Shown here one piece after another: positions 19,357 to 45,746 of a stretch of 64,000 nt of DNA. This DNA is from Lysobacter sp. S4-A87. GTDB lineage: Bacteria; Pseudomonadota; Gammaproteobacteria; Xanthomonadales; Xanthomonadaceae. The first letter of the stretch is position 1; each line of letters begins with the position of its first letter. The notes beneath the pieces were generated by a model. It was not told the DNA's origin. It saw only the letters and a program-made list of their open reading frames with translations, and searched no databases. Location: assembly GCF_022637455.1 (NCBI RefSeq), contig NZ_CP093341.1:1674001-1738000 (forward strand), in the 5' to 3' direction. The translations under genes and the position numbers were made by a program.

Positions 19357-19551
19357 GCAACGTCCTTGGATCCCCGCCTTCGCGGGGATGACGGTGGTTT
19401 GGAGACGGTCCGAAGACCGGGCAATGAAGCGGCATGGCGTCGTCCGCCGGCCCTGGGATTGCGGAGCAGTGGGCCATGGATGGCCCACGCCCCGCGTAAA
19501 GACAGGATGTCGTCCGCGGGGCGCAGCAATCCCAGGGCCGGCGGACGACGC
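19357..19551. repeat. Composite structured intergenic repeat, copy 1 (3' of fba)
   Basis: Module A (19357-19393) contains the hairpin ATCCCCGC-CTTC-GCGGGGAT at 19370-19389. A 43-bp linker follows. Module B is a long palindrome whose 26-bp arms (19437-19462 and 19526-19551) are perfect reverse complements. Inside the 63-base centre are a 6-bp hairpin (19470-19487), a 9-bp stem (19488-19496 with 19515-19523) and a small GACA/TGTC stem. It lies between the convergent carboxypeptidase and fba genes. Copies 2 and 3 have the same module order. Confidence 0.9.
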
Positions 19552-19607
19552 CTTTCCGAAGCCCCCCACGCAACTGGAACGCAGCCGACACGCCAAACGA
19601 CAGACAA

Positions 19608-19632
19608 CAAAAAAGCCGGCACAAGGCCGGCT
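19608..19632 (-). terminator. Intrinsic terminator of fba
   Basis: On the minus strand, AGCCGGC (19632-19626) pairs with GCCGGCT (19620-19614) around a five-base loop and is followed by a run of T. It lies 27 bases past the fba stop. Confidence 0.88.
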
Positions 19633-19658
19633 CTTCTGCTGATCAGCAAACGCGACGC

Positions 19659-20669
19659 TTACGCAGCCTGCTTCCACTGGCCAAGTGCAGCCAGACCGTT
19701 GTCACGAGCACGCTCGTACACCGTCTGCTGAGCCTTGGCGAAGTTGTTCACCAGATCCTGCGACCACAGCTTCAGCGCCGCCTGCTGCATCGCGCGACCG
19801 TACGAGAACGACAGCGGCCACGGATTCGGACCCATCTGGTTCATCGCATTGAGGTGCGCAGTAGCGTCCTCGTCGGCCTGGCCACCGGACAGGAACACGA
19901 TGCCCGGCAGCGTCGCCGGCACGGTCGACTTCAAGCACTGCAGCGTCGCCGCAGCGACGTCCTCGACACTGGCCTTCTCACCGCTGGTGGTGCCCGGCAG
20001 GATCATCGACGCCTTCAGGATCGTGCCCTCCAGCATCACGTTGTGCTCGTACAGCGAAGCGAACAGCGAACGCAGCGTGACCTCGGTGACCTCATAGCAG
20101 GTCTCGATATCGTGCGAACCGTCCATGATCACTTCCGGCTCGACCATCGGCACCAGACCCTGCTCCTGGCACAGCGCCGCATAGCGCGCCAGCGCATGCG
20201 CATTGGAATCGATGCAGGTGCCCGACGGAATGTCGTCACCGATGTTGATCACCGCGCGCCACTTGGCGAAACGCGCACCGAGCTTGTAGTACTCCTCCAG
20301 GCGCGCACGCAGACCATCCAGACCCTCGGTGATCACTTCGCCCGGGAAGCCGGCCAGCGCATGCGTGCCCTTGTCGACCTTGATGCCCGGGATCATGCCG
20401 TTGTCGGACATGTACTTGGCGAACGGAATGCCGCTCCTGGTCGACTGGCGGATGGTCTCGTCGAACAGGATCGCGCCGGAAATGTAGTCGCTCAGCTTGG
20501 GCGTGGCCAGCAGCAGCTCGCGGTAGGCGCGGCGATTCTCTTCGGTGTTCTCGATGCCGACGCCGGCGAAGCGCTTGGCAATGGTGCTGGTGGACTCATC
20601 GATGGCGATGATGCCCTTGCCCGGGGCCACCATGGCCTGGGCGGTTTCGGCAAGCTGTTCGATGCTCAT
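19659..20669 (-). CDS. fba: Class I fructose-bisphosphate aldolase
   Basis: Cleaves fructose-1,6-bisphosphate to glyceraldehyde-3-phosphate and dihydroxyacetone phosphate, 336 residues. It is the Schiff-base, eukaryote-like type: GKGIIAIDESTSTIAKRF near the N-terminus, KWRAVINIGD, the signature MVEPEVIMDG, and the active-site lysine in EGTILKASMILPG. FLSGGQADEDAT and PLSFSYGRAMQ complete the phosphate-binding region. The ATG at 20669 follows a GCAGGACG site. It is the last of a minus-strand glycolytic run. Confidence 0.95.
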   Translation of the reverse strand: MSIEQLAETAQAMVAPGKGIIAIDESTSTIAKRFAGVGIENTEENRRAYRELLLATPKLSDYISGAILFDETIRQSTRSGIPFAKYMSDNGMIPGIKVDKGTHALAGFPGEVITEGLDGLRARLEEYYKLGARFAKWRAVINIGDDIPSGTCIDSNAHALARYAALCQEQGLVPMVEPEVIMDGSHDIETCYEVTEVTLRSLFASLYEHNVMLEGTILKASMILPGTTSGEKASVEDVAAATLQCLKSTVPATLPGIVFLSGGQADEDATAHLNAMNQMGPNPWPLSFSYGRAMQQAALKLWSQDLVNNFAKAQQTVYERARDNGLAALGQWKQAA

Positions 20670-20695
20670 TGGACGTCCTGCAGGAGCGGTGGGAA

Positions 20696-20708
20696 GCCCG
20701 GCATTATA
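20696..20708 (-). promoter_or_regulatory. Promoter of fba with perfect -10 box
   Basis: On the minus strand TATAAT occupies 20708-20703, which places transcription start near 20696 and a leader of about 27 bases. The -35 region is G/C-rich and weak, so an activator or extended -10 contact may help. Confidence 0.6.
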
Positions 20709-20744
20709 GCCGCAGCGTGGCGTTCCCGCCCGCGGTCGGCCACG

Positions 20745-20770
20745 GTGAATCAATCACTTGCGTGATTCAC
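20745..20770. promoter_or_regulatory. Palindrome upstream of fba, candidate operator
   Basis: GTGAATCA (20745-20752) and TGATTCAC (20763-20770) form inverted half-sites with a ten-base spacer. An inner ATCAC/GTGAT pairing overlaps them. The centre is about 60 bases before the predicted fba start of transcription, a typical activator position. It could instead be a weak 3' hairpin of the upstream lipoprotein gene; no T-run follows. Confidence 0.4.
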
Positions 20771-20820
20771 ACCTTCGATTTCAATACCAGTTTCAGGTGC
20801 CGTTGCCAGCCCGGACCGGG

Positions 20821-21540
20821 TCACTGCCCGGCGATGGCCTGGCGCAACGTGTGGTTGGCCGCGTCCCGCGTCTTCAGGGGCTGGCCGTACTCGTCCACGC
20901 CCGGGAAGAAATCGGCGGATGGATCGATGCTGCGCTTGAGGGCCGCGATCTGCGCGTAGCAGTCGGACATCGCACCGGCATGCGGGCACCCGAGCAGATG
21001 GTAGAACTCGTGGACGGTCGCCTTGCCCGGTGGCGTGAACACCTGGTTGAGCGACACCTGGGTGGCCACGACATAGCCGCGCGTATGCGTGGGATCGTCA
21101 ACGCTGCCGAGCACCTCCGGCATCAGCAGGCCCCACAGGAAATCACCCGCATTTCGATCGACGAACGCCACCAGGCGATCGCACGGCGCCTCCAGCTCGT
21201 GCGCGATGACATCGTCAAACAGGCTGCGATGAGCGAAGCCCGCGCGTGTCCACGGCCGCACCCATGGCACCACCACGTCGATGCCGTAGGGTTTGAACTC
21301 CTGGTTGACCTCGGCAATCAACTTGTCGATGCGCTTCTCGCTGACGTCGCTGGTGCGCAGCACGCACACGCGCATCTGCACCGGCGGGCCGTATTCGATC
21401 GCGAAGCGCTGCTGGGTGTGCATTCCCACCGTCGTGCACGCGCACAACGCAATGGCGGCCAGCGTGAAGCTGGCGGCTAGCGCGACGCCGCGCAGCAGGC
21501 GCGACGCACGGCGGGGACCATCGATCCTGACGGTTGCCAC
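20821..21540 (-). CDS. Lipoprotein with metzincin-type zinc protease motif
   Basis: I do not recognise this family. The 239-residue protein has a signal peptide with a lipobox (LCAC, lipid Cys35). The full metzincin zinc motif HEFYHLLGCPH lies at H177-H187 (HExxHxxGxxH), and a Met four residues on (M191) could form the Met-turn. Several Cys (C59, C120, C185, C194) may form disulfides. The start is GTG at 21540, preceded by AGGGGA. It sits between pyk and fba but has no evident metabolic link. The protease call rests on the motif alone. Confidence 0.72.
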   Translation of the reverse strand: MATVRIDGPRRASRLLRGVALAASFTLAAIALCACTTVGMHTQQRFAIEYGPPVQMRVCVLRTSDVSEKRIDKLIAEVNQEFKPYGIDVVVPWVRPWTRAGFAHRSLFDDVIAHELEAPCDRLVAFVDRNAGDFLWGLLMPEVLGSVDDPTHTRGYVVATQVSLNQVFTPPGKATVHEFYHLLGCPHAGAMSDCYAQIAALKRSIDPSADFFPGVDEYGQPLKTRDAANHTLRQAIAGQ

Positions 21541-21669
21541 GGCAATTCCCCTGGATGAGGGATTGCTATCGCCAACGCGCCAGACACGAAGCGGCGGCCA
21601 TCACGCCGCCTTCGCAAAGACAAATGCATTGATGGGAGCCAGCTCGCTGCCGGCTCCGTCAACGGCGGC

Positions 21670-23136
21670 TCAGAGCTCGCCCAGTCCTTCTGCCGTGCCG
21701 TCGGCACCGACCTGCAACAGGCGCAGCGTGTTGGTCGCGCCGTGCTGCTCCATATGGTCGCCACTGGTGAAAATGACGCGGTCGCCGACGCTGAGCCGGT
21801 CCTGCTTGAACAACTGCTTGATCGCGCTGCGGGCGGCATCGCGCGAGGTCAGGCCACGGCTGTCGAAGTCGTAGGCCACGACATCGCGCATCATCGTCAT
21901 GCGACGGCGCGAGCCGTCATGGCGCGACATCGCGTAGATCGGCACCTGCGAGCGGAAGCGCGAGAGGAAACGCGCAGTGCCACCAGACTCGGTCATCGCC
22001 ACGATGGCACGCACGCCGATGTGCTCGGACAGGAACATCGTGGCCATGGCGATAGCCTGGTCGGCGCGCTCGAGGTTGCGCGGGGCGGCTTCGAAATCGG
22101 TGTCGCGGTTGAACTGGCGCTCGGCGCCCAGGCAGATGCGCGCCATCGCCTCGACCGCCTTCACCGGATAGCGGCCGGCGGCCGATTCCTGCGACAGCAT
22201 CACCGCGTCGGTGCCGTCGATGACGGCGTTGGCGACGTCGAGCACCTCTGCGCGGGTCGGGATCGGGCTGTCGACCATCGACTGCAGCATCTGCGTGGCG
22301 GTGATCACCACGCGGTTGCGCTCCAGCGCCTCGCGGATGATCTTCTTCTGCAGGCCTGGCAGTTCGGCGTCGCCGATCTCCACGCCCAGGTCGCCGCGCG
22401 CGACCATGACCACGTCGCTGGCGTCGACGATCTCGGACAGGTTCTCGATCGCTTCGGCGCGTTCGATCTTCGACACCAGCGCGGCATCGCTGCCGGCGGC
22501 GCGGGCGATGCGACGCGCTTCGTTCATGTCTTCGGCATTGCGGCAGAACGACACCGCGATGAAATCGGCGCCGAGTTCGGCGGCGACCAGGATCAGCTCC
22601 TTGTCGCGCTCGGTCAGCGCGCCCAGCGAGAGGCCGCCGCCCTGCTTGTTCAGGCCCTTGCGGTCGGACAGCGCACCGTCGTTGAGCACGGTGGTGATGA
22701 TGCGCTCGCCCTCGATCGCGCCTACTCGCAGCTGCAGCAGACCGTCGTCGAGCAGCAGCACGTCGCCCGGACGCACGTCGTTGGGCAAACCGAGGTAGCT
22801 CACGCCAACCTCGCGCAGGTTGCCCGGAGGCGCATCGACGCTGGCGACCAGGTCGAAGCGGTCGCCGGCCTTGAGAAGGACCTTGCCTTCGGCGAAACGT
22901 TCGATGCGGATCTTCGGGCCCGGCAGGTCGGCGAGGATGCCGACCTCCACGCCGACGCGCTTGGCGGCTTCGCGCACGGCTTCGGCGCGGGCAACCTGCG
23001 AGGACGGATCGCCGTGCGAGAAATTGAGCCGGACCACGTCGACACCGGCGGTGAGCAGCGCGTCGAGGACGCCCGGCGGATCAGTGGCCGGGCCGAGGGT
23101 TGCGAGGATCTTGGTGCGGCGCTGTGTGGTTGTCAT
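21670..23136 (-). CDS. pyk: Pyruvate kinase
   Basis: Converts phosphoenolpyruvate and ADP to pyruvate and ATP, 488 residues. It starts RRTKILATLGPAT. VVRLNFSHGD, DLPGPKIRIERF, the signature VSKIERAEAIENL and MVARGDLGVEI line the active site, and the C-terminal domain (SLRVGDRVIFTSGDH-type end) is present. It lies downstream of pgk and the HAD phosphatase on the same strand but after a gap of nearly 200 bases, so it probably has its own promoter. Confidence 0.96.
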   Translation of the reverse strand: MTTTQRRTKILATLGPATDPPGVLDALLTAGVDVVRLNFSHGDPSSQVARAEAVREAAKRVGVEVGILADLPGPKIRIERFAEGKVLLKAGDRFDLVASVDAPPGNLREVGVSYLGLPNDVRPGDVLLLDDGLLQLRVGAIEGERIITTVLNDGALSDRKGLNKQGGGLSLGALTERDKELILVAAELGADFIAVSFCRNAEDMNEARRIARAAGSDAALVSKIERAEAIENLSEIVDASDVVMVARGDLGVEIGDAELPGLQKKIIREALERNRVVITATQMLQSMVDSPIPTRAEVLDVANAVIDGTDAVMLSQESAAGRYPVKAVEAMARICLGAERQFNRDTDFEAAPRNLERADQAIAMATMFLSEHIGVRAIVAMTESGGTARFLSRFRSQVPIYAMSRHDGSRRRMTMMRDVVAYDFDSRGLTSRDAARSAIKQLFKQDRLSVGDRVIFTSGDHMEQHGATNTLRLLQVGADGTAEGLGEL

Positions 23137-23333
23137 CGAATGCTGCTTTCGCCTGGTGCGGCTTTTGCCGAGTGAGATTCATTGATTCCGGCGACGCTAG
23201 CACAGCTGTACGTTCAATCGGATTGAATACGCACGCAATCCGGGACGCGGGTCGTCCATACCGCGGGGCATGTGGGAAAGTGGTCTGCAATCACCCGGTC
23301 AAAAGCAGACCACCGCTGTCCCGGCGACCGCGC

Positions 23334-23972
23334 TCAGGCCGCCAGCAGGCCCTGCAGCTCGCCCGGCGCAGCAACCAGGTGCAGCGCCCCCGCCTCGCGC
23401 AACTCGACCTCGCCACCAAACCCCCAGAGCACGCCGACATTGCGCATGCCGTGGTGACGCGCGCCCTCGATGTCCATGCGCCGGTCGCCGATCATCCAGC
23501 ACTCACCGGCGGCGACATCCAGGCGCCGCAGCGCCTCGCCGATCAACTGGTCCTTGTGGCTGATGCGACCGTCCAGGGTCGCACCGACGATGTCGTCGAA
23601 ACGATGCCCGAACGGCAGGTGCCCGGCGATCTTTCGCGCGTGCGGTTCGTTCTTGGCGGTGACCACCGCCAGGCGGTGCCCGGCCGCGTGCAGCGCCTCG
23701 ATGGTCTCGCCGATGCCGGCGTAGACCTCGTGCTCGGCCCAGCCGTGGCTCTCGAAGCGGTCGCGGTAGTGCAGCACCGCCTGCTCGACGTCCTGCGGAT
23801 CGTCGAGCAGCGGACCGAAGCTGGTACGCAAGGCCGGTCCGATCCAGCGCCGCAGTTCCGACTGCGGCGGCACCGGCAGGCCCATCTTCACCAGTGCGTA
23901 CTCGACACAGCGGGTGATGCCGACGGCCGAGTCGATCAGCGTGCCGTCCATGTCGAAGAACACCGTTGCCAT
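23334..23972 (-). CDS. HAD hydrolase, phosphoglycolate phosphatase-like
   Basis: A 212-residue haloacid-dehalogenase-type phosphatase. Motif I is DMDGTLIDS with the nucleophile Asp at the N-terminus, a small helical cap follows, motif II Thr is in VVTAKNEP, and motifs III/IV are K...MIGDRRMDIEGA. It resembles Gph/PgmB-like enzymes. It starts nine bases after the pgk stop, so it is co-transcribed with pgk and may repair a damaged glycolytic metabolite (such as 2-phosphoglycolate or 2-phospholactate); that role is an inference. Confidence 0.88.
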   Translation of the reverse strand: MATVFFDMDGTLIDSAVGITRCVEYALVKMGLPVPPQSELRRWIGPALRTSFGPLLDDPQDVEQAVLHYRDRFESHGWAEHEVYAGIGETIEALHAAGHRLAVVTAKNEPHARKIAGHLPFGHRFDDIVGATLDGRISHKDQLIGEALRRLDVAAGECWMIGDRRMDIEGARHHGMRNVGVLWGFGGEVELREAGALHLVAAPGELQGLLAA

Positions 23973-23981
23973 TGCAGCGCC

Positions 23982-25154
23982 TCAGCCCCGCGCCTTGAGC
24001 GCGGTCACCGCCGGCAGTTCCTTGCCTTCGAGGAACTCGAGGAAGGCGCCGCCGCCGGTCGAGATGTAGGTCACGTCCTGCTCGATGCCGTACTTGTCGA
24101 CCGCCGCCAGGGTATCGCCGCCGCCGGCGATCGAGAACGCCTTGCTGGCGGCGATCGCACGCGCCAGGGTTTCGGTGCCCTTGCCGAACGCATCGAATTC
24201 GAACACGCCGACCGGGCCGTTCCACACCACGGTGCCGGCGGCCTTGATCAGCTCGGCGTAGCGCGCAGCGGTGTCCGGACCGATGTCGAGGATCATGTCG
24301 TCGGCGCCGACGGCATCGACGGCCTTGACCGTGGCAGGTGCATCGGCGGAGAAAGCCGGGGCGACCACGACGTCGGTCGGCACCGGGATGTCGGCGCCGC
24401 GCGCCCTGGCATCGGCCATGATCTTCTTCGCGGTGTCGATCAGGTCGTTCTCGACCAGCGACTTGCCGACGCCGTGGCCCATCGCGGCGATGAAGGTGTT
24501 GGCGATGCCGCCGCCGACGATCAGCTGGTCGACCTTGCTGACCAGCGACGACAGCAGTTCAAGCTTGGTCGAGACCTTGGAACCGGCGACGATCGCCAGC
24601 AGCGGACGCGCCGGGTTGTCGAGCGCCTTGGCCAGCGCATCGAGCTCGGCCATCAGCAACGGACCACCAGCGGCGACCTTGGCGAATCGGATCGCGCCAT
24701 GCGTCGACGCCTGGGCGCGGTGCGCGGTGCCGAAGGCGTCCATGACGTAGACGTCGCACAGCGCGGCGTACTTCTTCGACAGCGCTTCGTCGTCCTTGCC
24801 CTCGCCGACGTTCATGCGGCAGTTCTCGAGCAGCACCAGCTGGCCCGGCGCGACCTCGACGCCGTCCACCCAGTCCTTGACCAGCGGCACGTCGATGCCG
24901 AGCAGCTCCGACAGGCGCCGGGCGACCGGTGCGAGCGAATCGGCCTCGCTCCACACGCCTTCCTTCGGCCGGCCCAGGTGCGAGGTGACCATCACCGCAG
25001 CGCCCTTCTCCAACGCCAGCTTCATCGTCGGCACCGCCGCGGTGATGCGCTGCTCGGAGGTGATGCGACCGTCGTCGATGGGCACGTTGAGGTCTTCGCG
25101 GATCAGCACGCGCTTGCCGGCGAGATCGAGGTCGGACATGCGGACGATGGACAT
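23982..25154 (-). CDS. pgk: Phosphoglycerate kinase
   Basis: Transfers phosphate from 1,3-bisphosphoglycerate to ADP, 390 residues. It begins [20 protein letters not shown]. The substrate-binding [11 protein letters not shown], the hinge region and the nucleotide-binding [14 protein letters not shown] are present, and the closing [17 protein letters not shown] matches the family. An internal ATG at codon 6 is the only competing start. It is the head of the pgk-HAD unit. Confidence 0.96.
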
Positions 25155-25244
25155 GGGGGGCGCTCCGGGTGAATGCGTAGCCGCGTATTGTCGCGGCCCC
25201 CGTGCCGGAATGAAACCGCTGCACGCCGCAGCGGGCGCCCCTGT

Positions 25245-26678
25245 TTAGGCCCCGCCCGGGGTTTCCGGGTCGTGCGCCGCGCCCTGCCCGGCCGCCGGCC
25301 TGGGCTGGCGCAGCAGGCTCAGTGCGAACGCGCTGACGACCAGCGCCCCCAGCACCAGCACCGACCACAACAGCCACGAGGTCCAGTCGCGGCGGGCGGT
25401 GAACGCGGCATCTCCCGCCAGCGCCTGCGCTGCACCGAGGGAGGCGGGCGCGGGTTGCCAGGCGTCGCCGCGCTGCTCGCGCATGGCATCGACCAGCTGC
25501 GACAGCGGCGAATCGGCACGGCGCGCACGTGCGCTGCCGGCGACCAGCGAGTAAGGCGCCGGCCCCTGCGCGAGGAAGACCACCACTTCCGGCCGGTAGC
25601 CCAGACGCAGCGCAGGATCGCCGCTGACCGGCGTGCTGGCGCTCAGGCGCCAGTAGCGGTCGCGGACGACCCGATCGAGCACCCGTGCGCCGGAACGGCT
25701 CGCGCGCCCGGCCGAATCGACCTGCCAGGCCATCCACGGACCGGCGCGCAGCTGCCAGGGCGCACCGCTGTCGTCGCGGCTTTCCAGCCGCCACTCGACG
25801 GCATGGTTGCCCGGAAGCTCGACATCCACCTGCTGCACCGGGAAGCGACCTTCGAGGTTGAACTCGAATGCATCGCGACCGGCCTGGTCGATGCGGCGGC
25901 CGCGCAGTGGTTGCCACTGCGGCGCCGAGGCCACGGCAGAGCCGGCCAGCTCGGCGCTGACCGCGGTGATCTCGATCGGCTGATCGCTGCGGTCCGGCGT
26001 GAGTCGCAGGTAACGAACGTGGCGAGCGGGAGACAGTTCGATGCGCCGCTGCAGCAGGCGCCGCCCGTCGCGTTGCAGGTCAACCAGGCGGCCGCGCACG
26101 GGCAACGGCTGCCATTGGTCGAGATCGTCGCTGCCTTCGACGCGAAAGCCCAGGTCCAGTGCAGAGGCTGGTGCCGACGCCGGTGTCGAGGCTGGCTGCC
26201 ATTGCAGCTCCAGCGCGGTGATCGCCTCGCGTGCCTGGCTGGCATCGACCAGCAGCACGTTCTGCGGCAACGCGTCGGCGGCGGCGCCGTTTACGCGTGC
26301 CTGGACGCCGCGCAGGCGCCCCTCGCCATCGATCGTTCCGGTCAGCTCCCAGCCTCCGGCCGGGCCACCGGCGGGCGTGGCCGGAAGCCTGAACCATGGC
26401 AACGCGATCCGGGCCGGCGCCTGGACCAGGGGCTGCTCCGGTGCGAACAACGCCGACGGAACGGTGGCGCCGTCGTGGTTGCGGACCTCGAAGTCGCGCA
26501 GGTCATGTGTGTACAGCTGCCGATACACCGACGCGTCCAGGGTCACGCGATAGGCGCCGCCATCGTCCCGGCTCAGCTTGAGCGGCCACTGCTGGGCGAA
26601 GTCTTCGCTGGCAACGGCGGGCGCGGCAAGCAACAGGCAGGCGACCTGAAGGCAGACAATCCGGGCGAGGCGTTTCAT
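25245..26678 (-). CDS. DUF3999 domain envelope protein
   Basis: Function unknown. A 477-residue protein with a signal peptide (RIVCLQVACLLLAAPAVASE), a large beta-rich exterior region with jelly-roll-like stretches (LDLGFRVEGSDDLDQWQPL; RYWRLSAST), and a C-terminal TM helix (LLWSVLVLGALVVSAFALSL). This is the DUF3999 pattern. It begins in a four-base ATGA overlap with the DUF2339 gene, and the two families are often paired, so they probably act together in the cell envelope. Confidence 0.85.
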   Translation of the reverse strand: MKRLARIVCLQVACLLLAAPAVASEDFAQQWPLKLSRDDGGAYRVTLDASVYRQLYTHDLRDFEVRNHDGATVPSALFAPEQPLVQAPARIALPWFRLPATPAGGPAGGWELTGTIDGEGRLRGVQARVNGAAADALPQNVLLVDASQAREAITALELQWQPASTPASAPASALDLGFRVEGSDDLDQWQPLPVRGRLVDLQRDGRRLLQRRIELSPARHVRYLRLTPDRSDQPIEITAVSAELAGSAVASAPQWQPLRGRRIDQAGRDAFEFNLEGRFPVQQVDVELPGNHAVEWRLESRDDSGAPWQLRAGPWMAWQVDSAGRASRSGARVLDRVVRDRYWRLSASTPVSGDPALRLGYRPEVVVFLAQGPAPYSLVAGSARARRADSPLSQLVDAMREQRGDAWQPAPASLGAAQALAGDAAFTARRDWTSWLLWSVLVLGALVVSAFALSLLRQPRPAAGQGAAHDPETPGGA

Positions 26679-29413: not shown

Positions 29414-29547
29414 CCATGGGCCCCCTGTTGTGGATCTGCGCACACCTTACCGCAAGCGCGGACGCCCGGTTCAGGTCGTGACTTCCGATCACAATGCACA
29501 ACATTATGTGTTGACCAATCCACCGGACCACACTATGTTGTGGCCGT

Positions 29548-29766
29548 CGGTGCCGACCTCGCGGTCGGCTTAAAAGGGAAGTCCGGTGCGGCCTCGCTCA
29601 GATCACATCGTTGATCGAGCGGCCAACTCCGGCGCTGCCCCGCAGCGGTAGTGGAAACGAACGCCGTCATGGCACTGGGCCCAAGGCCTGGGAAGCGACG
29701 GTCAGTAGGTGAGGTGGCCAGCGGCATGCGCCCGGTCCTCGCGTCCAGAGCCCGAAGACCTGCCGA
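29548..29766 (+). ncRNA. Cobalamin (B12) riboswitch upstream of nrdA
   Basis: Adenosylcobalamin riboswitch judged by conserved pieces in order: GGTGCCGACC...GGTCGGC, AAAAGGGAA, GGCGCTGCCCCGCAGCGGTA, the B12-box-like GGCACTGGGC, CTGGGAAGCGACGGTCAGTA and a closing AGCCCGAAGACCTGCC. An 8-bp hairpin ACCGCGCG/CGCGCGGT (29769-29792) follows and another (29806-29822) holds GGAGG in its loop, which could form the expression platform. It leads into class Ia ribonucleotide reductase, so cobalamin should repress nrdAB. Confidence 0.9.
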
Positions 29767-29986
29767 CAACCGCGCGTTGCACACCGCGCGGTGACCGGCC
29801 AGCGAGTCTTCGGAGGGAAGACGGTCGGTGTTGCATGGAGGCGCGCCGTTGCTGTCGAAGGACGCCCGCCACCACAGGCCCGTCTCGGCCTGCGCGACGC
29901 CGCAACCGCAATCTCCGAGTCCCGCGCCACGCCGCCCTTCGAGGGAAGGACGACGAGCCGTGCGCCCACGCACCGGAGCTATCACG
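29767..29986 (+). promoter_or_regulatory. Leader between the riboswitch and nrdA
   Basis: About 220 bases with two hairpins (29769-29792; 29806-29822) and no T-run, which favours control of translation over termination. A short frame 29835-29990 ends in an ATGA overlap with the nrdA start, and a GTG at 29828 is in frame with nrdA behind GGAGGG. Both have Arg/Pro-rich translations and I do not call them as genes. Confidence 0.45.
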
Positions 29987-32491: not shown

Positions 32492-32634
32492 CCCACAAGC
32501 CGGCGGTGGCCCTGGCGTCACCGCCCCACAAGAACCGTCCCTTCAGCCGGCGTGCGACGCGCGAACTGCTTCCCTCCCCCCGCGCAACGCAGCGTCGCCC
32601 GCCCCTGAAGGGCAAGGTCCACCGAGGCAACACC
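32492..32634 (+). other. nrdA-nrdB spacer
   Basis: A 143-base gap on the same strand. No terminator hairpin with T-run and no clear promoter is visible, so nrdB is probably read from the nrdA transcript and shares riboswitch control. Confidence 0.5.
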
Positions 32635-33645
32635 ATGTCCGACACCCGCCTGCTCGACCCCGGCTTCGATCTCACCCTGCGGCCGATGCGTTACCCGCAG
32701 TTCTACGAGATGTACCGCGACGCGATCCGCAACACCTGGACCGTCGAAGAGGTCGATTTCTCGCTCGACGTCAACGACCTCAAGCACAAGCTCGGTCCGG
32801 CCGAGCGCCACCTGATCGAGCGGCTGGTGGCGTTCTTCGCCACCGGCGACAGCATCGTCGCCAACAACCTGGTGCTGAACCTCTACCAGCACATCAACGC
32901 GCCCGAGGCGCGCATGTACCTGTCGCGGCAGCTGTACGAGGAAGCGCTGCACGTGCAGTTCTACCTGACTCTGCTCGATACTTACCTGCCCGACCCGGTC
33001 GCCCGCGCCAAGGCTTTCGACGCAGTGCAGAACATTCCGTCGATCCGCGCCAAGGCCGAGTTCTGCTTCAAGTGGATCGACTCGATCCAGGGCATCCGGC
33101 GCATCGAGACCACGGACCAGCGTCGCCAGTTCCTGCTCAACCTGATCTGCTTCGCCTGCTGCATCGAGGGCCTGTTCTTCTTCGCCGCATTCGCCTACGT
33201 CTACTACCTGCGCTCGCGCGGCCTGCTGCACGGGCTGGCGTCGGGCACCAACTGGGTGTTCCGTGACGAAAGCTGCCACATGGCCTTCGCCTTCGAGGTG
33301 ATCCGCACCGCGCGCAGCGAGCAGCCGGAACTGTTCGACGACGAGCTGCAGCGCCAGGTCGTGCAGATGCTGGAGGAAGCGGTGGAGTGCGAGATGCAGT
33401 TCGCCCAGGACGTGCTGTCGGGCGGCGTCGCCGGCCTGTCGCCCAAGGACATGCGCCAGTACCTGCAGTACTGCGCCGACCAGCGCCTGGCGCAACTGGG
33501 CATGCCGCGCCATTTCGGCGCGACCAACCCGTTCGCCTTCATGGATCTGCAGGACGTGCAGGAAGTGACCAACTTCTTCGAGCGCCGCGTCTCGGCCTAC
33601 CAGGTGGGCGTGCAGGGCGAGGTCGCCTTCGATGCCGCGTTCTGA
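32635..33645 (+). CDS. nrdB: Ribonucleoside-diphosphate reductase class Ia, beta subunit
   Basis: Diiron-tyrosyl radical subunit, 336 residues. Iron ligands and radical site read in EEALHVQFY (Glu, His, then Tyr in the E-xx-H-xxx-Y spacing), with a second ligand set in CCIEGLFFFAAF and RDESCHMAF. The Tyr is present, so this is the standard radical-bearing form. The ATG at 32635 begins MSDTRLLDPG; the frame is open upstream but overlaps the nrdA end. Its stop overlaps the thioesterase start. Confidence 0.96.
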   Translation: MSDTRLLDPGFDLTLRPMRYPQFYEMYRDAIRNTWTVEEVDFSLDVNDLKHKLGPAERHLIERLVAFFATGDSIVANNLVLNLYQHINAPEARMYLSRQLYEEALHVQFYLTLLDTYLPDPVARAKAFDAVQNIPSIRAKAEFCFKWIDSIQGIRRIETTDQRRQFLLNLICFACCIEGLFFFAAFAYVYYLRSRGLLHGLASGTNWVFRDESCHMAFAFEVIRTARSEQPELFDDELQRQVVQMLEEAVECEMQFAQDVLSGGVAGLSPKDMRQYLQYCADQRLAQLGMPRHFGATNPFAFMDLQDVQEVTNFFERRVSAYQVGVQGEVAFDAAF

Positions 33646-34039
33646 GACGCCAACGCCCCCGACCGAAGCCCGCATGACCGAAATAGTCTTCCCCGACCAC
33701 ACCAACCACCTCGGCACCCTGTTCGGTGGCCAGGCGCTGGCATGGATGGACAAGGCCGCCTTCGTCGCCGCCTCGCGCTATGCGCGCAGCACCGTGGTCA
33801 CCGCGCGCTCGGAACAGATCGACTTCCACGTCGCCGTGCCCAAGGGCGCCCTGGTAGAACTGGTCGCACGCGTGGTCGCCACCGGCCGCAGCTCGCTGCA
33901 GGTGGAAGTCGACATGTACCGCGAGGACCTGATGACAGGCGACACGCAACTGGCCACGCGCGGCCGCTTCACGATGGTCGCGCTGGACGTGCACGGCCAG
34001 CCGACGCCGGTCCCCGCACTGCAGCCATCCGGCGATTGA
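33632..34039 (+). CDS. Hotdog-fold acyl-CoA thioesterase (YciA-like)
   Basis: A 135-residue acyl-CoA hydrolase with a single hotdog domain. The signature HTNHLGTLFGGQALAWMDKAA contains the Asn/Asp catalytic region, followed by VTARSEQIDFHVAVPKGALV. The start at 33632 overlaps nrdB by 14 bases and gives the short pre-domain segment usual in relatives (EARMTEIVFP); an alternative ATG at 33674 starts right at MTEIVFP. The overlap suggests co-expression with nrdAB, but no functional link is evident. Confidence 0.85.
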   Translation: MPRSETPTPPTEARMTEIVFPDHTNHLGTLFGGQALAWMDKAAFVAASRYARSTVVTARSEQIDFHVAVPKGALVELVARVVATGRSSLQVEVDMYREDLMTGDTQLATRGRFTMVALDVHGQPTPVPALQPSGD

Positions 34040-34105
34040 CGCCCCCTGCCCGCGGCGCTAATTTAGCGGCGTCGTGGTGACCATCGCTTCATAAAGATAA
34101 AGCGA

Positions 34106-34294
34106 TGTGACAAGCACCGCCGGGCGACCGGCGGTGCCAGAGGGAATCCGGTACGGACAACCGTCCAATTCCGGAGCTGCCCCGCAGCGGTATATGGGAA
34201 CGACCGCCATCCATGCACTGGGCTCTGCCCGGGAAGCGATGGCCAGTAGGTGAGGAGCTTGCGCCCCTCGCGCCCACGAGCCCGAAGACCTGCC
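34106..34294 (+). ncRNA. Cobalamin (B12) riboswitch upstream of metE
   Basis: The same conserved blocks as the nrdA element: GCACCGCCGGGCGACCGG, CAGAGGGAATCCGGT, GGAGCTGCCCCGCAGCGGTA, ATGCACTGGGCT, CGGGAAGCGATGGCCAGTAG and the closing GAGCCCGAAGACCTGCC. It is followed at once by a very stable 7-bp hairpin with a TTCG tetraloop. It precedes metE, the B12-independent methionine synthase, the classic target of repression by cobalamin. Confidence 0.93.
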
Positions 34295-34299
34295 ATGAC

Positions 34300-34317
34300 C
34301 GGAGGGTTCGCCCTCCG
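34300..34317 (+). promoter_or_regulatory. UUCG hairpin after the metE riboswitch
   Basis: CGGAGGG-TTCG-CCCTCCG forms a perfect 7-bp stem with a UUCG tetraloop, starting six bases after the riboswitch. No T-run follows, so it is more likely a switching or stabilising stem of the expression platform than a terminator. The remaining 160 bases to metE show no gene. Confidence 0.6.
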
Positions 34318-34478
34318 TCCGACCCCCGACCGCACGGCTCGCGCCGCGTGGCCGGTTCGCCCGCGGGGGCGAAGGTCGAAGGCAGGTCCCGGTCCCGAAG
34401 CCGCTTGCGGCGGCGGGGGCGTGCCCATGCCCTCCTTCGTTGCCCTGCGTCATGCATACGCATCGCAGGTACATAACC

Positions 34479-36755
34479 ATGATCCAGGTAACCCATCTCG
34501 GCTTCCCGCGCATTGGCGCGCGGCGCGAGCTCAAGCAGACCCTCGAATCGTTCTGGAAAGGCCAGGCGCCAGCCCAGGACCTGCACGACACGGCACGCGA
34601 GTTGCGCGCACGGCACTGGCAACTGGCACGCGATGCCGGTGTCGATGTCGTCGCCTGCAACGACTTCTCGCTGTACGACCACGTGCTGGACACGGCGGTG
34701 CTGTTCGATGCCATCCCGCCCTCGCACCGCGACGTGTTCGAAGCAGATCCGCTGGCCGGCTATTTCGCTCTCGCCCGCGGCCTGCAGGACGGCCAGCACG
34801 ACCTCCATGCGCTGGAGATGACCAAGTGGTTCGACAGCAACTACCACTACCTCGTGCCGCAGTTCCAGCTCGACCAGACCTTCCGCCTGCGCGGCGACAA
34901 GCCGCTGGCCGAGCTGGGTGAAGCCCGTGCGCTCGGACTGGAGGCGCGCCCCGTGCTGCTCGGCCCGGTCTCGTTCCTCAAGCTGGGCAAGCGTGAGGAC
35001 GGCGGCTGCCCGCTCGAACTGCTCGATGCGCTGCTGCCGGCCTACGTGCAACTGCTGCAGCAGCTGAAGGCGGCCGGTGCCTCGTGGGTGCAGATCGACG
35101 AACCCTGTCTGGTGCTCGACCTCGGCGACGCCGACCGCGAGGCCTATCGCCGTGCCTTCGCCGCGCTGGCCGCGGCTGACGTTCCGCAGATCCTGCTGGC
35201 GACTTACTTTGGCGACCTGGGCGACAACCTGGAGCTGGTCGCGGGGCTGCCGGTGGACGCGCTCCACGTCGACCTCGTACGCGCACCGCAGCAGCTCGTG
35301 CGCGTGCTCGCCAGGTGGCCGGCCGAGCGCCCATTGAGCCTGGGCGTCGTCGACGGACGCAACGTGTGGCGCACCGACCTCGACGCAGCATTGGCGCTTG
35401 TGCGCACGGCCGGTTCGCGCGTGCGATGGCTGGCGCCGTCATGCTCGCTGCTGCACGTGCCGATCGACCTGGAGCTCGAGCGCAAATTGCCGCAGCCGCT
35501 GCGCGGCGGCATGGCCTTCGCACGGCAGAAGCTCGAAGAGCTGCGGTTGCTCGCCGATGCCCATGCCGGCAATGCAGGCGCAAAAGCAGCGATCGCCACT
35601 GCGCAGGCAGCACGCGCCGCCCATCGCAATGCGCCGGAACTGAGCAACGCCACGGTCCGCGCGCGCTTGGCCGCACTGGTTCCGGCGATGAGCCGGCGCG
35701 TCACGCCCTACCCGCAGCGCGCGCCACTGCAGCACGAGCGGTTGCCGCTGCCGCCACTGCCGACCACCACGATCGGTTCCTTCCCGCAGCTGTCGCTGGT
35801 GCGCAAGGCCCGCGCCGACCACAAGGCCGGCAAGCTCGATGACGCCGGCTACCGCCAGTTCCTCGAGCGCGAGATCGACAACTGCCTGCGCGAACAGGAA
35901 GCCATCGGCCTGGACGTGCTGGTGCATGGCGAGTTCGAGCGCAACGACATGGTCGAGTACTTCGGCGAGCAGCTCGACGGCTTCGCCTTCACCTCCCACG
36001 GCTGGGTGCAGAGCTACGGCTCGCGCTGCGTGAAGCCGCCGGTGCTGTACGGCGACGTCAGCCGGCCGCGGGCGATGACCGTGGAATGGACCCGCTACGC
36101 GCAGTCACGCACGCAGTATCCGGTGAAGGGCATGCTGACCGGGCCGGTCACCATCCTGCAGTGGTCGTTCGTGCGCGACGACCAGCCACGCGCCGACACC
36201 TGCCGGCAGATCGCGCTGGCCCTGCGCGATGAAGTGCTGGAGCTGGAAGCGGCCGGCATCGCCATCATCCAGATCGACGAGCCGGCATTGCGCGAAGGCC
36301 TGCCGTTGCGGCGCGACGATTGGCCGCACTACCTGGCCTGGGCGGTGGAGGCGTTCGGCCTCGCCGCCGGTGCAGTGGCCGATACCACCCAGATCCATAC
36401 CCACATGTGCTACGCCGAGTTCAATGACATCATCGATGCGGTCGCCGCGCTCGATGCCGACGTGATCTCGATCGAGACTTCGCGCTCACGGATGGAGCTG
36501 CTCGATGCCTTTGCCAGATTCCGCTACCCCAACGGCATCGGCCCGGGCGTGTATGACATCCACGCCCCGCGCGTGCCGTCGCCGGGCGAGATCGGCGAGC
36601 TGCTGGACAAGGCGTTGCAGGTGATTCCGGCGGCGCAGCTGTGGGTCAACCCGGACTGCGGCCTCAAGACGCGCGGCTGGCCGGAGGTGCGCAAGGCGCT
36701 GAGCGCGATGGTCCAGGCCACCCGTGAACTGCGCCTGGGACTGACCGCGGCCTGA
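34479..36755 (+). CDS. metE: Cobalamin-independent methionine synthase
   Basis: Methylates homocysteine with 5-methyltetrahydropteroyltriglutamate, 758 residues, full length. The N-terminal domain starts THLGFPRIGARRELK. The catalytic C-terminal domain starts near TTTIGSFPQ and carries the zinc ligands in IHTHMCYAEF (His, Cys, Glu) and VNPDCGLKTRGW (Cys). The ATG at 34479 gives MIQVTHLGFP; 13 extra upstream codons look unlike the family. Expression should fall when B12 is available. Confidence 0.97.
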   Translation: MIQVTHLGFPRIGARRELKQTLESFWKGQAPAQDLHDTARELRARHWQLARDAGVDVVACNDFSLYDHVLDTAVLFDAIPPSHRDVFEADPLAGYFALARGLQDGQHDLHALEMTKWFDSNYHYLVPQFQLDQTFRLRGDKPLAELGEARALGLEARPVLLGPVSFLKLGKREDGGCPLELLDALLPAYVQLLQQLKAAGASWVQIDEPCLVLDLGDADREAYRRAFAALAAADVPQILLATYFGDLGDNLELVAGLPVDALHVDLVRAPQQLVRVLARWPAERPLSLGVVDGRNVWRTDLDAALALVRTAGSRVRWLAPSCSLLHVPIDLELERKLPQPLRGGMAFARQKLEELRLLADAHAGNAGAKAAIATAQAARAAHRNAPELSNATVRARLAALVPAMSRRVTPYPQRAPLQHERLPLPPLPTTTIGSFPQLSLVRKARADHKAGKLDDAGYRQFLEREIDNCLREQEAIGLDVLVHGEFERNDMVEYFGEQLDGFAFTSHGWVQSYGSRCVKPPVLYGDVSRPRAMTVEWTRYAQSRTQYPVKGMLTGPVTILQWSFVRDDQPRADTCRQIALALRDEVLELEAAGIAIIQIDEPALREGLPLRRDDWPHYLAWAVEAFGLAAGAVADTTQIHTHMCYAEFNDIIDAVAALDADVISIETSRSRMELLDAFARFRYPNGIGPGVYDIHAPRVPSPGEIGELLDKALQVIPAAQLWVNPDCGLKTRGWPEVRKALSAMVQATRELRLGLTAA

Positions 36756-36760
36756 CGGCG

Positions 36761-36799
36761 ATGGAGCCGCCCACCCGCCAACGCGGGCGGGCGGCCTCC
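36761..36799 (+). terminator. Hairpin 3' of metE, probable terminator
   Basis: A long GC-rich hairpin: ATGGAG and CTCCAT close a stem of CCCGC/GCGGG type around a CAAC loop, starting five bases after the metE stop. The T-run is missing, so efficiency is uncertain. Confidence 0.55.
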
Positions 36800-36861
36800 A
36801 TTGCATCCTGGCCGGCCGCAGGACTAAATAGCCGACATCCTGAACGGGAATCGCCGCTGCC

Positions 36862-38382
36862 ATGTCGCCAATGCGCCTGCCCCGCAGCCATGTTCTCTGG
36901 CTCGCCCTGATCGCGATCGCGCTGTTCGTGCTGCGGCTCTTCAGCAACCAGCACTACGGCTTCCACCGCGACGAACTGGCACTGCTCGACGATGCACGAA
37001 CGCTGGCCTGGGGCTACGTCGCCTACCCGCCGCTGACGCCGGCGCTCGGGCGCATCTCGCTGGAATTGTTCGGCGATTCGCTCAGCGGCTTCCGTGTGTT
37101 TGCGGCCCTGGCGCAAAGCATCGCCGCCGTGCTTGCCGGCCTGATCGCGCGCGAAATGGGCGGCACCCGCGCCACGCAGATAGTGACAGCGCTGTTCGCT
37201 GCGCTGGCGCCGTTCTCGATGGTGGCAGGCGGCCTGATGCAATACGTCAGCATCGACTACCTCTGGTGGGTGCTGCTGGCCTGGTTGATGCTGCGACTGG
37301 TCAACAGCGCCGACCCGCGCTGGTGGCTGGCGATCGGCGCGGTGATCGGCCTGGGCATGCTGACCAAGTACACGATGGTGTTCTTCGTCGCCGGCATAGT
37401 GGTGGCCACGCTGGCGACACCGCTGCGCTCGCACCTGCGCGGCCGCTGGCTGTGGCTCGGAGCGGCACTGTCAGTGCTGCTGTTCCTGCCCAATGCGCTG
37501 TGGCAATGGCGGCACGACTTCATCTCGCTGGACTTCCTGCAGACCATCCACGCCCGCGATGTGCGCATCGGCCGCACCCGGGATTTCCTGATCGAGCAGC
37601 TCTACGGCAATGCCGGCCTGATGGCCCTGCCGGTCTGGCTGGCCGGTCTGGCCTGGCTGATCCTGTCCAAGGCCGGCCGACGCTATGCCGTGGTTGCATG
37701 GATGTACGCGGTGCCATTGTTCCTGTTCGCGATGGCCCAGGGCCGCGCGTATTACCTGGCGCCGGCCTATCCGATGCTGCTTGCGGCCGGCTGTGTCGCG
37801 ATCGAACAGTTCCTGCACCGGCAGGGGCCACTGCGCGCCGGCTACGCGTTCACCGGCACGGCGCTGATGACGGTTTGGATCGTGGCCATGGCCGCGGCGA
37901 GCGGTCTGATCGGCCTGCAGTTTTCCGCGGTCAACTCGATGGGCTGGCGCATCAGCCGTGCCGCGCACGACAACTTCGCCGAGCAGATCGGCTGGCCGGA
38001 ACTGGTGGCGGAAGTGGCGCGCATCTACCACGCGTTGCCGGAAGGCGAGCGCGAGCACACGGCCGTGTTCACCAACAACTACGGCGAGGCCGGTGCGATC
38101 AATCTCTACGGGCCGAAGCTTGGCCTGCCGACAGCGATCAGCCCGGTCAATTCGTACTGGTACAAGGGCTATGGTTCGACGCCACCGAACACGGTGATCG
38201 TATTGGGCGACACGCGCGAGGACATAGCCGACGCGCCGGGCGACTGCGTGCCCGCAGGCCGCATACGCAATCGATACAACGTGCCCAACGAAGAGACGCG
38301 CGACCACCCGGACATCTTCATCTGCCGCAACCTGCGCATTCCGTGGTCGCAGGCGTGGCCGAAGATGCAGAAGTTCGGTTAA
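36862..38382 (+). CDS. Glycosyltransferase family 39-type integral membrane protein (ArnT/PMT-like)
   Basis: A 506-residue GT-C glycosyltransferase that would use a lipid-linked sugar at the periplasmic face. It has about ten TM helices. The first periplasmic loop carries the catalytic acidic motif HRDELALLDD, followed by YPPLTPALGRISLELFG. A soluble C-terminal region (about residues 350-506) contains NNYGEAGAINLYGP. The acceptor is unknown; lipid A, glycan or protein are possible. It stands alone and overlaps the next gene's 3' end by four bases, tail to tail. Confidence 0.85.
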   Translation: MSPMRLPRSHVLWLALIAIALFVLRLFSNQHYGFHRDELALLDDARTLAWGYVAYPPLTPALGRISLELFGDSLSGFRVFAALAQSIAAVLAGLIAREMGGTRATQIVTALFAALAPFSMVAGGLMQYVSIDYLWWVLLAWLMLRLVNSADPRWWLAIGAVIGLGMLTKYTMVFFVAGIVVATLATPLRSHLRGRWLWLGAALSVLLFLPNALWQWRHDFISLDFLQTIHARDVRIGRTRDFLIEQLYGNAGLMALPVWLAGLAWLILSKAGRRYAVVAWMYAVPLFLFAMAQGRAYYLAPAYPMLLAAGCVAIEQFLHRQGPLRAGYAFTGTALMTVWIVAMAAASGLIGLQFSAVNSMGWRISRAAHDNFAEQIGWPELVAEVARIYHALPEGEREHTAVFTNNYGEAGAINLYGPKLGLPTAISPVNSYWYKGYGSTPPNTVIVLGDTREDIADAPGDCVPAGRIRNRYNVPNEETRDHPDIFICRNLRIPWSQAWPKMQKFG

Positions 38383-38789
38383 CCGGTCTCGGCGATGGCG
38401 ATGCCGAGCGGGAGCGCGCCCTTGCGTTCCTGCAGGCCCAGGCCGTAACGCAGGCTGTAGCCGATCTTGTTGGCGTGTTCGCAGGCCAGCGCGGCATGCT
38501 CCGGCGCCAGCAGCGACTCCGCGGTCTGCTGCCACAGCGACAACCACTGGTCGAAATGCTCGGGGCGGATCGGGTGCGGCCGGTGCGCGGCCATGGGCTG
38601 TCCGCGATAACTGCGCGTGCCCAGCAGTACCGACGACCAGAACGACGTCAGCAGCCGCTTGTGCCCGGGCCAGTCGTCGATGGCGGCGTTGAAGACGGGA
38701 CCGAGTTCCGGGTGGGCGCGGACCTGCTCGTAGAAGCGGTCCACGAGGGTCGCCAACTGCTGCTCATCAAGCTGTGGGGTTTGGCTCAT
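38379..38789 (-). CDS. Group III truncated haemoglobin
   Basis: A 136-residue haem protein of the trHb3 (P) group. LVDRFYEQVRAHPELGPVFN, then WPGHKRLLTSFWSSVLLGT, the proximal-His region RPEHFDQWLSLW and a C-terminal helix follow the family order. Such proteins are linked to nitric oxide and redox stress, which would fit an organism with periplasmic nitrate reductase, but the biological role here is an inference. The ATG at 38789 was chosen because upstream codons run into the repeat element. Confidence 0.9.
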   Translation of the reverse strand: MSQTPQLDEQQLATLVDRFYEQVRAHPELGPVFNAAIDDWPGHKRLLTSFWSSVLLGTRSYRGQPMAAHRPHPIRPEHFDQWLSLWQQTAESLLAPEHAALACEHANKIGYSLRYGLGLQERKGALPLGIAIAETG

Positions 38790-38847
38790 GGCTCTTCTAC
38801 TGGGGTTTTTAGGCCCGGAAATCAAGGTGTGCCTGCTGTTCTGGCGA

Positions 38848-39036
38848 GCAACATCCATGGGTTCCCGCCTTCGCGGGAATGACGGGCAAGGGACCGAAGA
38901 CCATGCAACGAAGAGCCGAAGCGTCGTCCGCCGGGCCGGGGATTGCGTAGCAGCGGGACATGGATGTCCCGCGCCCCGCGTTCGGACAGGATGTCCGACC
39001 AAGGGGCGGAGCAATCCCCGGCCCGGTGGACGACGC
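38848..39036. repeat. Composite structured intergenic repeat, copy 2 (3' of gap)
   Basis: Module A (38848-38884) has the hairpin TTCCCGC-CTTC-GCGGGAA at 38862-38879. A 36-bp linker follows. Module B has 26-bp arms at 38921-38946 and 39011-39036 with one mismatch that is a G-T (G-U) pair. Inner stems are CGGGAC/GTCCCG (38954-38971), CGCCCC/GGGGCG (38972-38977 with 39003-39008) and CGGACA/TGTCCG (38983-38997). Several bases differ from copy 1 on both sides of a stem, preserving pairing. Confidence 0.9.
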
Positions 39037-45656: not shown

Positions 45657-45746
45657 GCAACGTCCATGGATCCCCGCCTTCGCGGGGATGACGGCTTCCA
45701 ACGCAGACCGGGCAACGAAATGCCGAAGCGTCGTCCGCCGGGTCGG
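45657..45746. repeat. Composite structured intergenic repeat, copy 3, truncated (3' of tkt)
   Basis: Module A (45657-45693) is nearly identical to copy 1, with the hairpin at 45670-45689. The 34-base linker is close to that of copy 2 and keeps ACCGGGCAACGAA. Of module B only the first 19 bases of the left arm remain (45728-45746); the centre and right arm are absent or diverged. Confidence 0.85.

Follow-up and report, generated by a model that had tools for sequence, protein, structure and literature searches.

The DNA analyzed here, a window of 64,000 nucleotides from Lysobacter sp. S4-A87 (NZ_CP093341.1, positions 1,674,001 to 1,738,000), contains a composite repeat, complete in two copies and truncated in a third, that was originally predicted to be a selected folding element placed 3' of central-carbon genes. 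The observation of the repeat is confirmed, and the interpretation is partly supported. Direct reading of both full copies shows the order that had been claimed, a short hairpin followed by a linker and a long palindrome. In copy 1, adjacent to a gene that Pfam identifies as a class-I fructose-bisphosphate aldolase (fba), the short hairpin occupies 19367 to 19393 on the minus strand, and the plus-strand linker (19394 to 19436, with the conserved stretches CCGAAGACC and GGCAATG) leads into a long module at 19437 to 19551, which scored 123.6 bits against R1, our covariance model of the repeat made from 36 copies. Copy 2, adjacent to a glyceraldehyde-3-phosphate dehydrogenase gene (gap), has its short hairpin at 38858 to 38883 on the minus strand and its long module at 38921 to 39036 on the plus strand (134.4 bits). 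Both genes had been named correctly from the sequence. All that remains of copy 3 (45657 to 45746) is the short hairpin (45667 to 45693, minus strand), the linker, and a 5'-arm remnant (45728 to 45746, plus strand) with neither the hairpins nor the 3' arm; R1 did not find this copy, and it folds no better than shuffled sequences (z = 0.07).

The long module is predicted to fold, as plus-strand RNA, into a 26-bp outer stem that closes a three-way junction of two hairpins tipped with GGA, and we refer to the strand with these tips, here the plus strand, as the GGA strand. In copy 1 the arms of the outer stem (19437 to 19462 and 19526 to 19551) enclose hairpin 1 (H1; 19469 to 19488, loop AUGGAU, GGA at 19478 to 19480) and hairpin 2 (H2; 19489 to 19522, tip ACAGGAUGU, GGA at 19505 to 19507), with the second GGA 24 nt from the first. 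Copy 2 has the same layout, with arms at 38921 to 38946 and 39011 to 39036, H1 at 38953 to 38972 (GGA at 38962 to 38964), and the H2 GGA at 38989 to 38991, and in these window copies the tips read C-AUGGAU-G in H1 and ACA-GGA-UGU in H2. Predicted energies were -110.5 kcal/mol for copy 1 and -102.6 kcal/mol for copy 2 (z = -10.4 and -10.8), a level that none of 200 shuffles reached. The paired changes between the two copies read as had been described, including two arm changes with their partner changes, the inner hairpin in which TGGGCC/GGCCCA becomes CGGGAC/GTCCCG, and a sole arm departure in copy 2 (G38930/T39027) that is a G.U pair on the plus strand. The covariance-model search that had been suggested found many more copies, also with paired changes. 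We aligned 36 copies, of which 33 are distinct. Pairing is kept in 98.2% of the pair cells, and both sides have changed in 14 of 41 pairs, compared with a mean of 5.2 in shuffled controls (0 of 500 reaching 14) and 2 to 4 in slid controls; the loop columns of this alignment are invariant, while its paired columns vary (mean minority fraction, 0.066).

Covariation and the further copies thus uphold the prediction that a folded form is selected, and its alternative of RNA or DNA cruciform can be narrowed to a fold of the GGA strand only. We extracted 157 unique elements, aligned their arms ungapped with one equal penalty for every mismatch type, and defined the strand by the GGA loops, because the covariance model assigns strand poorly on palindromes. 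Counted as distinct-context events, stem mismatches on the GGA strand comprised 85 G.U versus 12 A.C (binomial p = 1e-14), 24 G.G versus 0 C.C, and 33 G.A or A.G versus 2 C.T or T.C. In single-stranded folds, of DNA as well as RNA, G.U, G.G, and G.A are more stable than A.C, C.C, and C.T, and the observed order fits this ranking. The bias was not produced by the covariance model, since the 77 elements from loci fetched with a sequence pattern that requires no stem (stem required at extraction, symmetric scoring) gave 48 G.U versus 7 A.C. Control CGTC-type hairpin repeats oriented by their tag, a small set, gave 7 versus 11. By locus group, 40 favored G.U, 3 favored A.C, and 14 were tied, with several groups sharing one genome and hence not all independent. 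A cruciform, or a process that corrects palindromes, should treat the two strands alike, so the asymmetry indicates that a single-stranded fold of the GGA strand appears to be under selection. Comparing mismatches strand by strand could serve more generally to separate such selection from cruciforms or palindrome correction.

The GGA tips are also conserved beyond the window. Among 45 copies from the source genome (G000) and one congener (G010), the H2 tip is CAGGATG in 43 and CAGGAAG in 1, and H2 identity was not a search requirement. H1 (CA[TA]GGATG) was a search condition for those copies and for the 157 elements, so that its constancy there is no result; it was nevertheless constant in a set found by blastn without that condition, the set found by the covariance model having been scored with H1. 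For H2 the 157-element set required only a GGA in a hairpin. Of these elements, 80 were obtained without the pattern and carry CAGGATG (59), CATGGATG (9), or other tips (12), the tips of the 77 others being biased by the pattern itself. In published work, the CsrB repeat is CAGGA(U/A/C)G, the hexaloop bound by RsmE is ANGGAN, and a CsrA dimer bridges sites 10 to 63 nt apart, best over 18 (PMC7652899). The tips of H1 and H2 fit ANGGAN and CAGGA(U/A/C)G, respectively, and their spacing of 24 nt falls within the bridging range. The source genome encodes CsrA as a single gene product, with L4 and R44, that closely resembles CsrA-family chains of solved structure, 2JPP among them.

The long module shares its architecture with TwoAYGGAY (RF01731), an RNA family with a long, poorly conserved outer stem, a three-way junction, and two GGA-tipped hairpins, which Rfam clan CL00106 groups with RsmW and rsmX. 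The family has been listed as a probable RNA that is unlikely to be cis-regulatory (PMC2864571) and has been predicted to bind CsrA, with a poorly conserved external stem (PMC4333381). The module agrees with the RF01731 consensus in having an outer stem that closes a junction of two hairpins; as to AYGGAY in both loops, H1 has it (AUGGAU) and H2 does not (CAGGAUG). The RF01731 gathering score of 43 bits is not reached in the window, where a search with copy 1 by itself does not list the family at E ≤ 10, and the source genome and G010 have no match at E ≤ 0.001 under strict filters. An existing Rfam family that covers the long module had been named among the points that would refute the original reading; TwoAYGGAY does have the same architecture, but the window copies lie beyond the reach of RF01731. 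RF01731 exceeds its cutoff in 11 of 395 genomes of the family Xanthomonadaceae, including three congeners (G001, G005, and G011), and in Hydrocarboniphaga and Halothiobacillaceae copies. R1 overlaps above-cutoff RF01731 matches at 4 of the 11 family loci (L290, L292, L294, and L299; L-numbers denote extracted loci) and also at L196 and L136, with 40 to 57 bits; reverse-strand echoes of true elements score 24 to 56 bits, so this cross-match is suggestive only. The repeat also differs from TwoAYGGAY in its 20-odd insertion-polymorphic copies adjoining hairpin repeats, although RF01731 is itself multicopy in some family genomes. After most of the TwoAYGGAY-type copies at L293, L295, L300, L301, L303, and L308 comes a palindrome that recurs, for example GGTTACTTTTCTTTGGGCAAGCAAAGAAAAGTGACC.

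The CsrA-sequestering small RNAs of the CsrB/RsmX/RsmW type likewise present GGA in hairpin loops and have paired sites, but the repeat places two sites in a three-way junction and is dispersed in intergenic gaps. Xanthomonas campestris is a relative of the source organism. Its RsmU, an RsmA-binding RNA from a 3' untranslated region, offers a further comparison but is processed from one mRNA (PMC7694677). Candidate matches to the VA, RsmW, miRNA, and rsmX Rfam models at or near copies were all below their cutoffs and were rejected; one of these, an rsmX match at L049:3793-3934 (30.3 bits, cutoff 56), lies directly upstream of a copy and overlaps the end of a small gene that shows a weak resemblance to Thx/S31e. 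The CsrA idea for TwoAYGGAY-type RNAs is already in print, and the literature that we saw, a partial view, held no description of a dispersed CsrA-binding repeat and no mention of this subfamily, its copy number, its insertion polymorphism, or the strand test.

The short hairpin had been thought to resemble repeats widespread in proteobacteria, and it fits a known type of repetitive extragenic palindrome (REP). In copies 1 and 3, the minus strand carries a CGTC tag, an 8-bp stem starting with AT, a 4-nt loop, and a CCA tail; copy 2 is of the same type with one stem mismatch. These features match those given for CGTC-1 REPs, namely, the CGTC tag, an 8- to 9-bp stem starting with AT, a 4- to 5-nt loop, and a CCA tail (PMC3733652). 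The long module falls outside that description.

With R1, the source genome yields 22 full copies of the repeat and G010 yields 24; the raw counts of 45 and 48 also take in echoes from the reverse strand and one half copy, and a blastn search within the source genome gave 60 matches with short hairpins and palindrome echoes included. The remaining 10 congeners gave no match at E ≤ 0.001. Across the family, R1 matched 121 of 395 genomes in 18 of 54 genera (E ≤ 1e-4, strict filters, at most 9 to 10 candidates scored per genome), and in 369 genomes of the class it matched 2, both from this family. At E ≤ 1e-6, Luteimonas weifangensis has 63 matches and Pseudoxanthomonas kaohsiungensis 57, possibly including echoes. 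The stems differ widely between genera, with the fold and GGA tips mostly kept: 23 of the 28 family-scan loci fetched meet our extraction rule, and both GGA tips are open in 22 of these, not in L114 (L105 and L121 were read by hand, the script having picked a stem GGA). The other five are L111 (a duplicate of L011), L113, L116, L128 (a different H1 tip), and L132. The sequence pattern GGCCATGGATGGCC-N15..45-ACAGGATG, with no stem required, matched at least 120 stretches; those listed come from Lysobacter, Stenotrophomonas, Thermomonas, Luteimonas, and Pseudoxanthomonas and also from Salinicola, Halomonas, Shewanella, Hydrocarboniphaga, a Halothiobacillaceae metagenome-assembled genome, and some nongammaproteobacteria. 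Both GGA motifs were unpaired in 26 of 32 folded pattern hits (30 loci). Of 14 pattern-bearing genomes searched for CsrA, 11 have it. Modules also occur as inverted pairs about 170 to 250 bp apart in G014 (L011, L015, L019, L023, L026, L029, and L032) and in G343, G378, and G327, where R1 matched one partner and TwoAYGGAY the other; AUGGAU stands in both loops of L015, L023, L026, L029, and L032. Long inverted repeats carried CATGGATG in 42 of 43 cases in element-centered loci, a sample biased by choice, and 400 kb of the source genome picked between known copies, not a fair genome-wide sample, held no element and one other inverted repeat.

Comparison with congeners indicates insertion polymorphism. 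The element is in none of 11 congeners at the fba site, and since G010, G005, and G011 share the neighboring gene there, these are true empty sites; the gap site is likewise empty in 11 of 11. No clear target-site duplication of the kind associated with miniature inverted-repeat transposable elements (MITEs) was seen by eye at these two sites, where the flanks have diverged. Five copy pairs between the source genome and G010 look orthologous, with long flanking matches. Our context table, which uses our own open reading frame scorer and covers 45 of the 47 copies in these two genomes (half-copy L060 and copy L074 failed the stem filter), places 20 in convergent gaps, 15 in tandem gaps in sense, 8 in tandem gaps in antisense, 1 in a divergent gap, and 1 unassigned, and 90 further elements divide into 46, 15, 23, and 6 among the four classes. 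Divergent gaps are avoided in the two genomes (1 divergent to 23 tandem versus 42 to 75 among the other gaps in the same loci, counting those of 100 nt or more and subtracting element gaps; p = 0.0013). A sense position in the 3' untranslated region, suggested by the 15 to 8 ratio, was rejected as a rule on the wider set.

Placement relative to particular genes proved looser than had been predicted. At each of the three window sites, the end of the minus-strand gene is indeed separated from the element by one terminator-like site of that gene, as claimed, these being consensus matches only, with 0.3 to 0.6 expected per region from shuffles. Placement 3' of central-carbon genes fails as a rule: in a scan of 30 of the 43 neighbor genes of the 22 source-genome copies, it extends beyond fba and gap to one lactate/malate dehydrogenase, other neighbors are mixed (including IF-1, MetK, Clp ATPase, AcrB, COQ7, and PhoX), and all 11 congeners lack the element at either window site. 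At L053:2684-5830 the order is metK, element, S-adenosylhomocysteine riboswitch (56.5 bits), and ahcY. Seven G010 loci (L061, L065, L253, L255, L256, L260, and L261) have an extra conserved stretch of about 200 to 300 nt that separates the element from the gene upstream of it and holds a long hairpin in 6 of the 7 copies. GC skew over 20 samples showed no clean replication origin. The window also contains two plus-strand cobalamin riboswitches (29531 to 29781, 95.9 bits; 34096 to 34311, 76.7 bits).

We consider the long module to be probably a CsrA/RsmA-binding RNA that has multiplied as a dispersed, insertion-prone intergenic repeat; this is the best reading because it accounts for the strand-specific fold together with two published forms of CsrA site. 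Transcription of the GGA strand would yield an RNA that folds into a long stem presenting a pair of GGA hairpins at a distance of about 24 nt, which should suit the clamping of one CsrA dimer, and the dispersed copies could together act as decoy sites or bring CsrA to the transcripts containing them. The repeat is best explained as belonging with TwoAYGGAY-like RNAs, as a subfamily missed by the Rfam model, beside CGTC-type REP hairpins. A number of observations weigh against a CsrA-binding RNA. R1 misses 7 of the 11 above-cutoff RF01731 loci (L291, L293, L295 to L298, and L300), the minimum-energy fold pairs one GGA in 6 of the 32 pattern hits (L147, L176, L180, L202, L135, and one L201 hit), the H2 GGA has been lost in 1 of the 45 copies (L255), and the G014 copy L019 reads ATCGAT. 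The SELEX (systematic evolution of ligands by exponential enrichment) consensus for CsrA is RUACARGGAUGU (PMC7652899), which H2 does not match exactly, lacking the R before GGA, and the H1 stems exceed the short SELEX hairpins in length. No CsrA was found in the other 3 of the 14 pattern-bearing genomes (a Spirochaetia genome, a Deltaproteobacteria metagenome-assembled genome, and Brevundimonas), though the Brevundimonas hit does not form the junction; the Spirochaetia loci L138 and L150 have folded GGA hairpin pairs, unfitting for CsrA binding in the L138 genome, where CsrA was not detected. Tandem copies lie 15 to 8 in sense versus antisense in the two genomes, 15 to 23 in other loci, and 30 to 31 together, which is random orientation and weakens a simple model of the 3' untranslated region; none of the three window sites showed a sigma-70-like promoter, and with no sense preference either, a transcript is putative.

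Given the random orientation and the insertion pattern, the main rival is a non-autonomous mobile element moving as single-stranded DNA, whose folded GGA strand would be recognized through its loops by a transposase or recombinase, with the likeness to CsrA sites a coincidence. Dispersed copies, presence or absence between close species with empty sites, the avoidance of divergent gaps, and selection of a one-strand fold would all follow, and a selected single-stranded DNA fold would give the strand bias as well. We regard this as unlikely. The tips of H1 and H2 agree with two CsrA site forms known from print, and the Rfam clan joins TwoAYGGAY with rsmX and RsmW; neither of the two compared sites, with their diverged flanks, shows a clear target duplication, and the source genome has no match to PF01797, the profile of the Y1 transposase that goes with RAYT-mobilized REP/REPIN elements (it matched 5 of 14 genomes as a control), other enzyme families not having been searched for. 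The two explanations are compatible, because a CsrA-binding RNA could spread as the passenger of a mobile repeat. It is a good deal harder to credit a REP-like bidirectional barrier or mRNA 3'-end stabilizer with incidental GGA loops, which would account for a long stem that folds, and could work, on either strand and for a position 3' of at least one gene in 43 of 44 copies with both neighbors called in the two genomes (84 of 90 elsewhere), but predicts neither constant GGA tips nor an excess of G.U over A.C on one strand. Nor do we give much weight at all to replication errors that correct palindromes by template switching and keep the arms identical without selection: the 157 elements do have 84 distinct inner arms that are near perfect whatever their sequence, but residual mismatches should then be strand symmetric, as in the control REPs and not in the elements, and the loops are constant as well.

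If the long module does bind CsrA, decoys for this regulator would not be limited to dedicated small-RNA genes but could spread as repeats, and TwoAYGGAY would acquire many relatives and a role that can be tested. Close species would differ strongly in CsrA sites of this type, with more than 20 in some and none found by R1 in others, some congeners carrying TwoAYGGAY-type copies instead. More speculatively, the copies might constitute a mobile, genome-wide CsrA sponge, in which copy number and host transcripts would set the level of free CsrA and the gain and loss of repeats could rewire a global regulator between close species.

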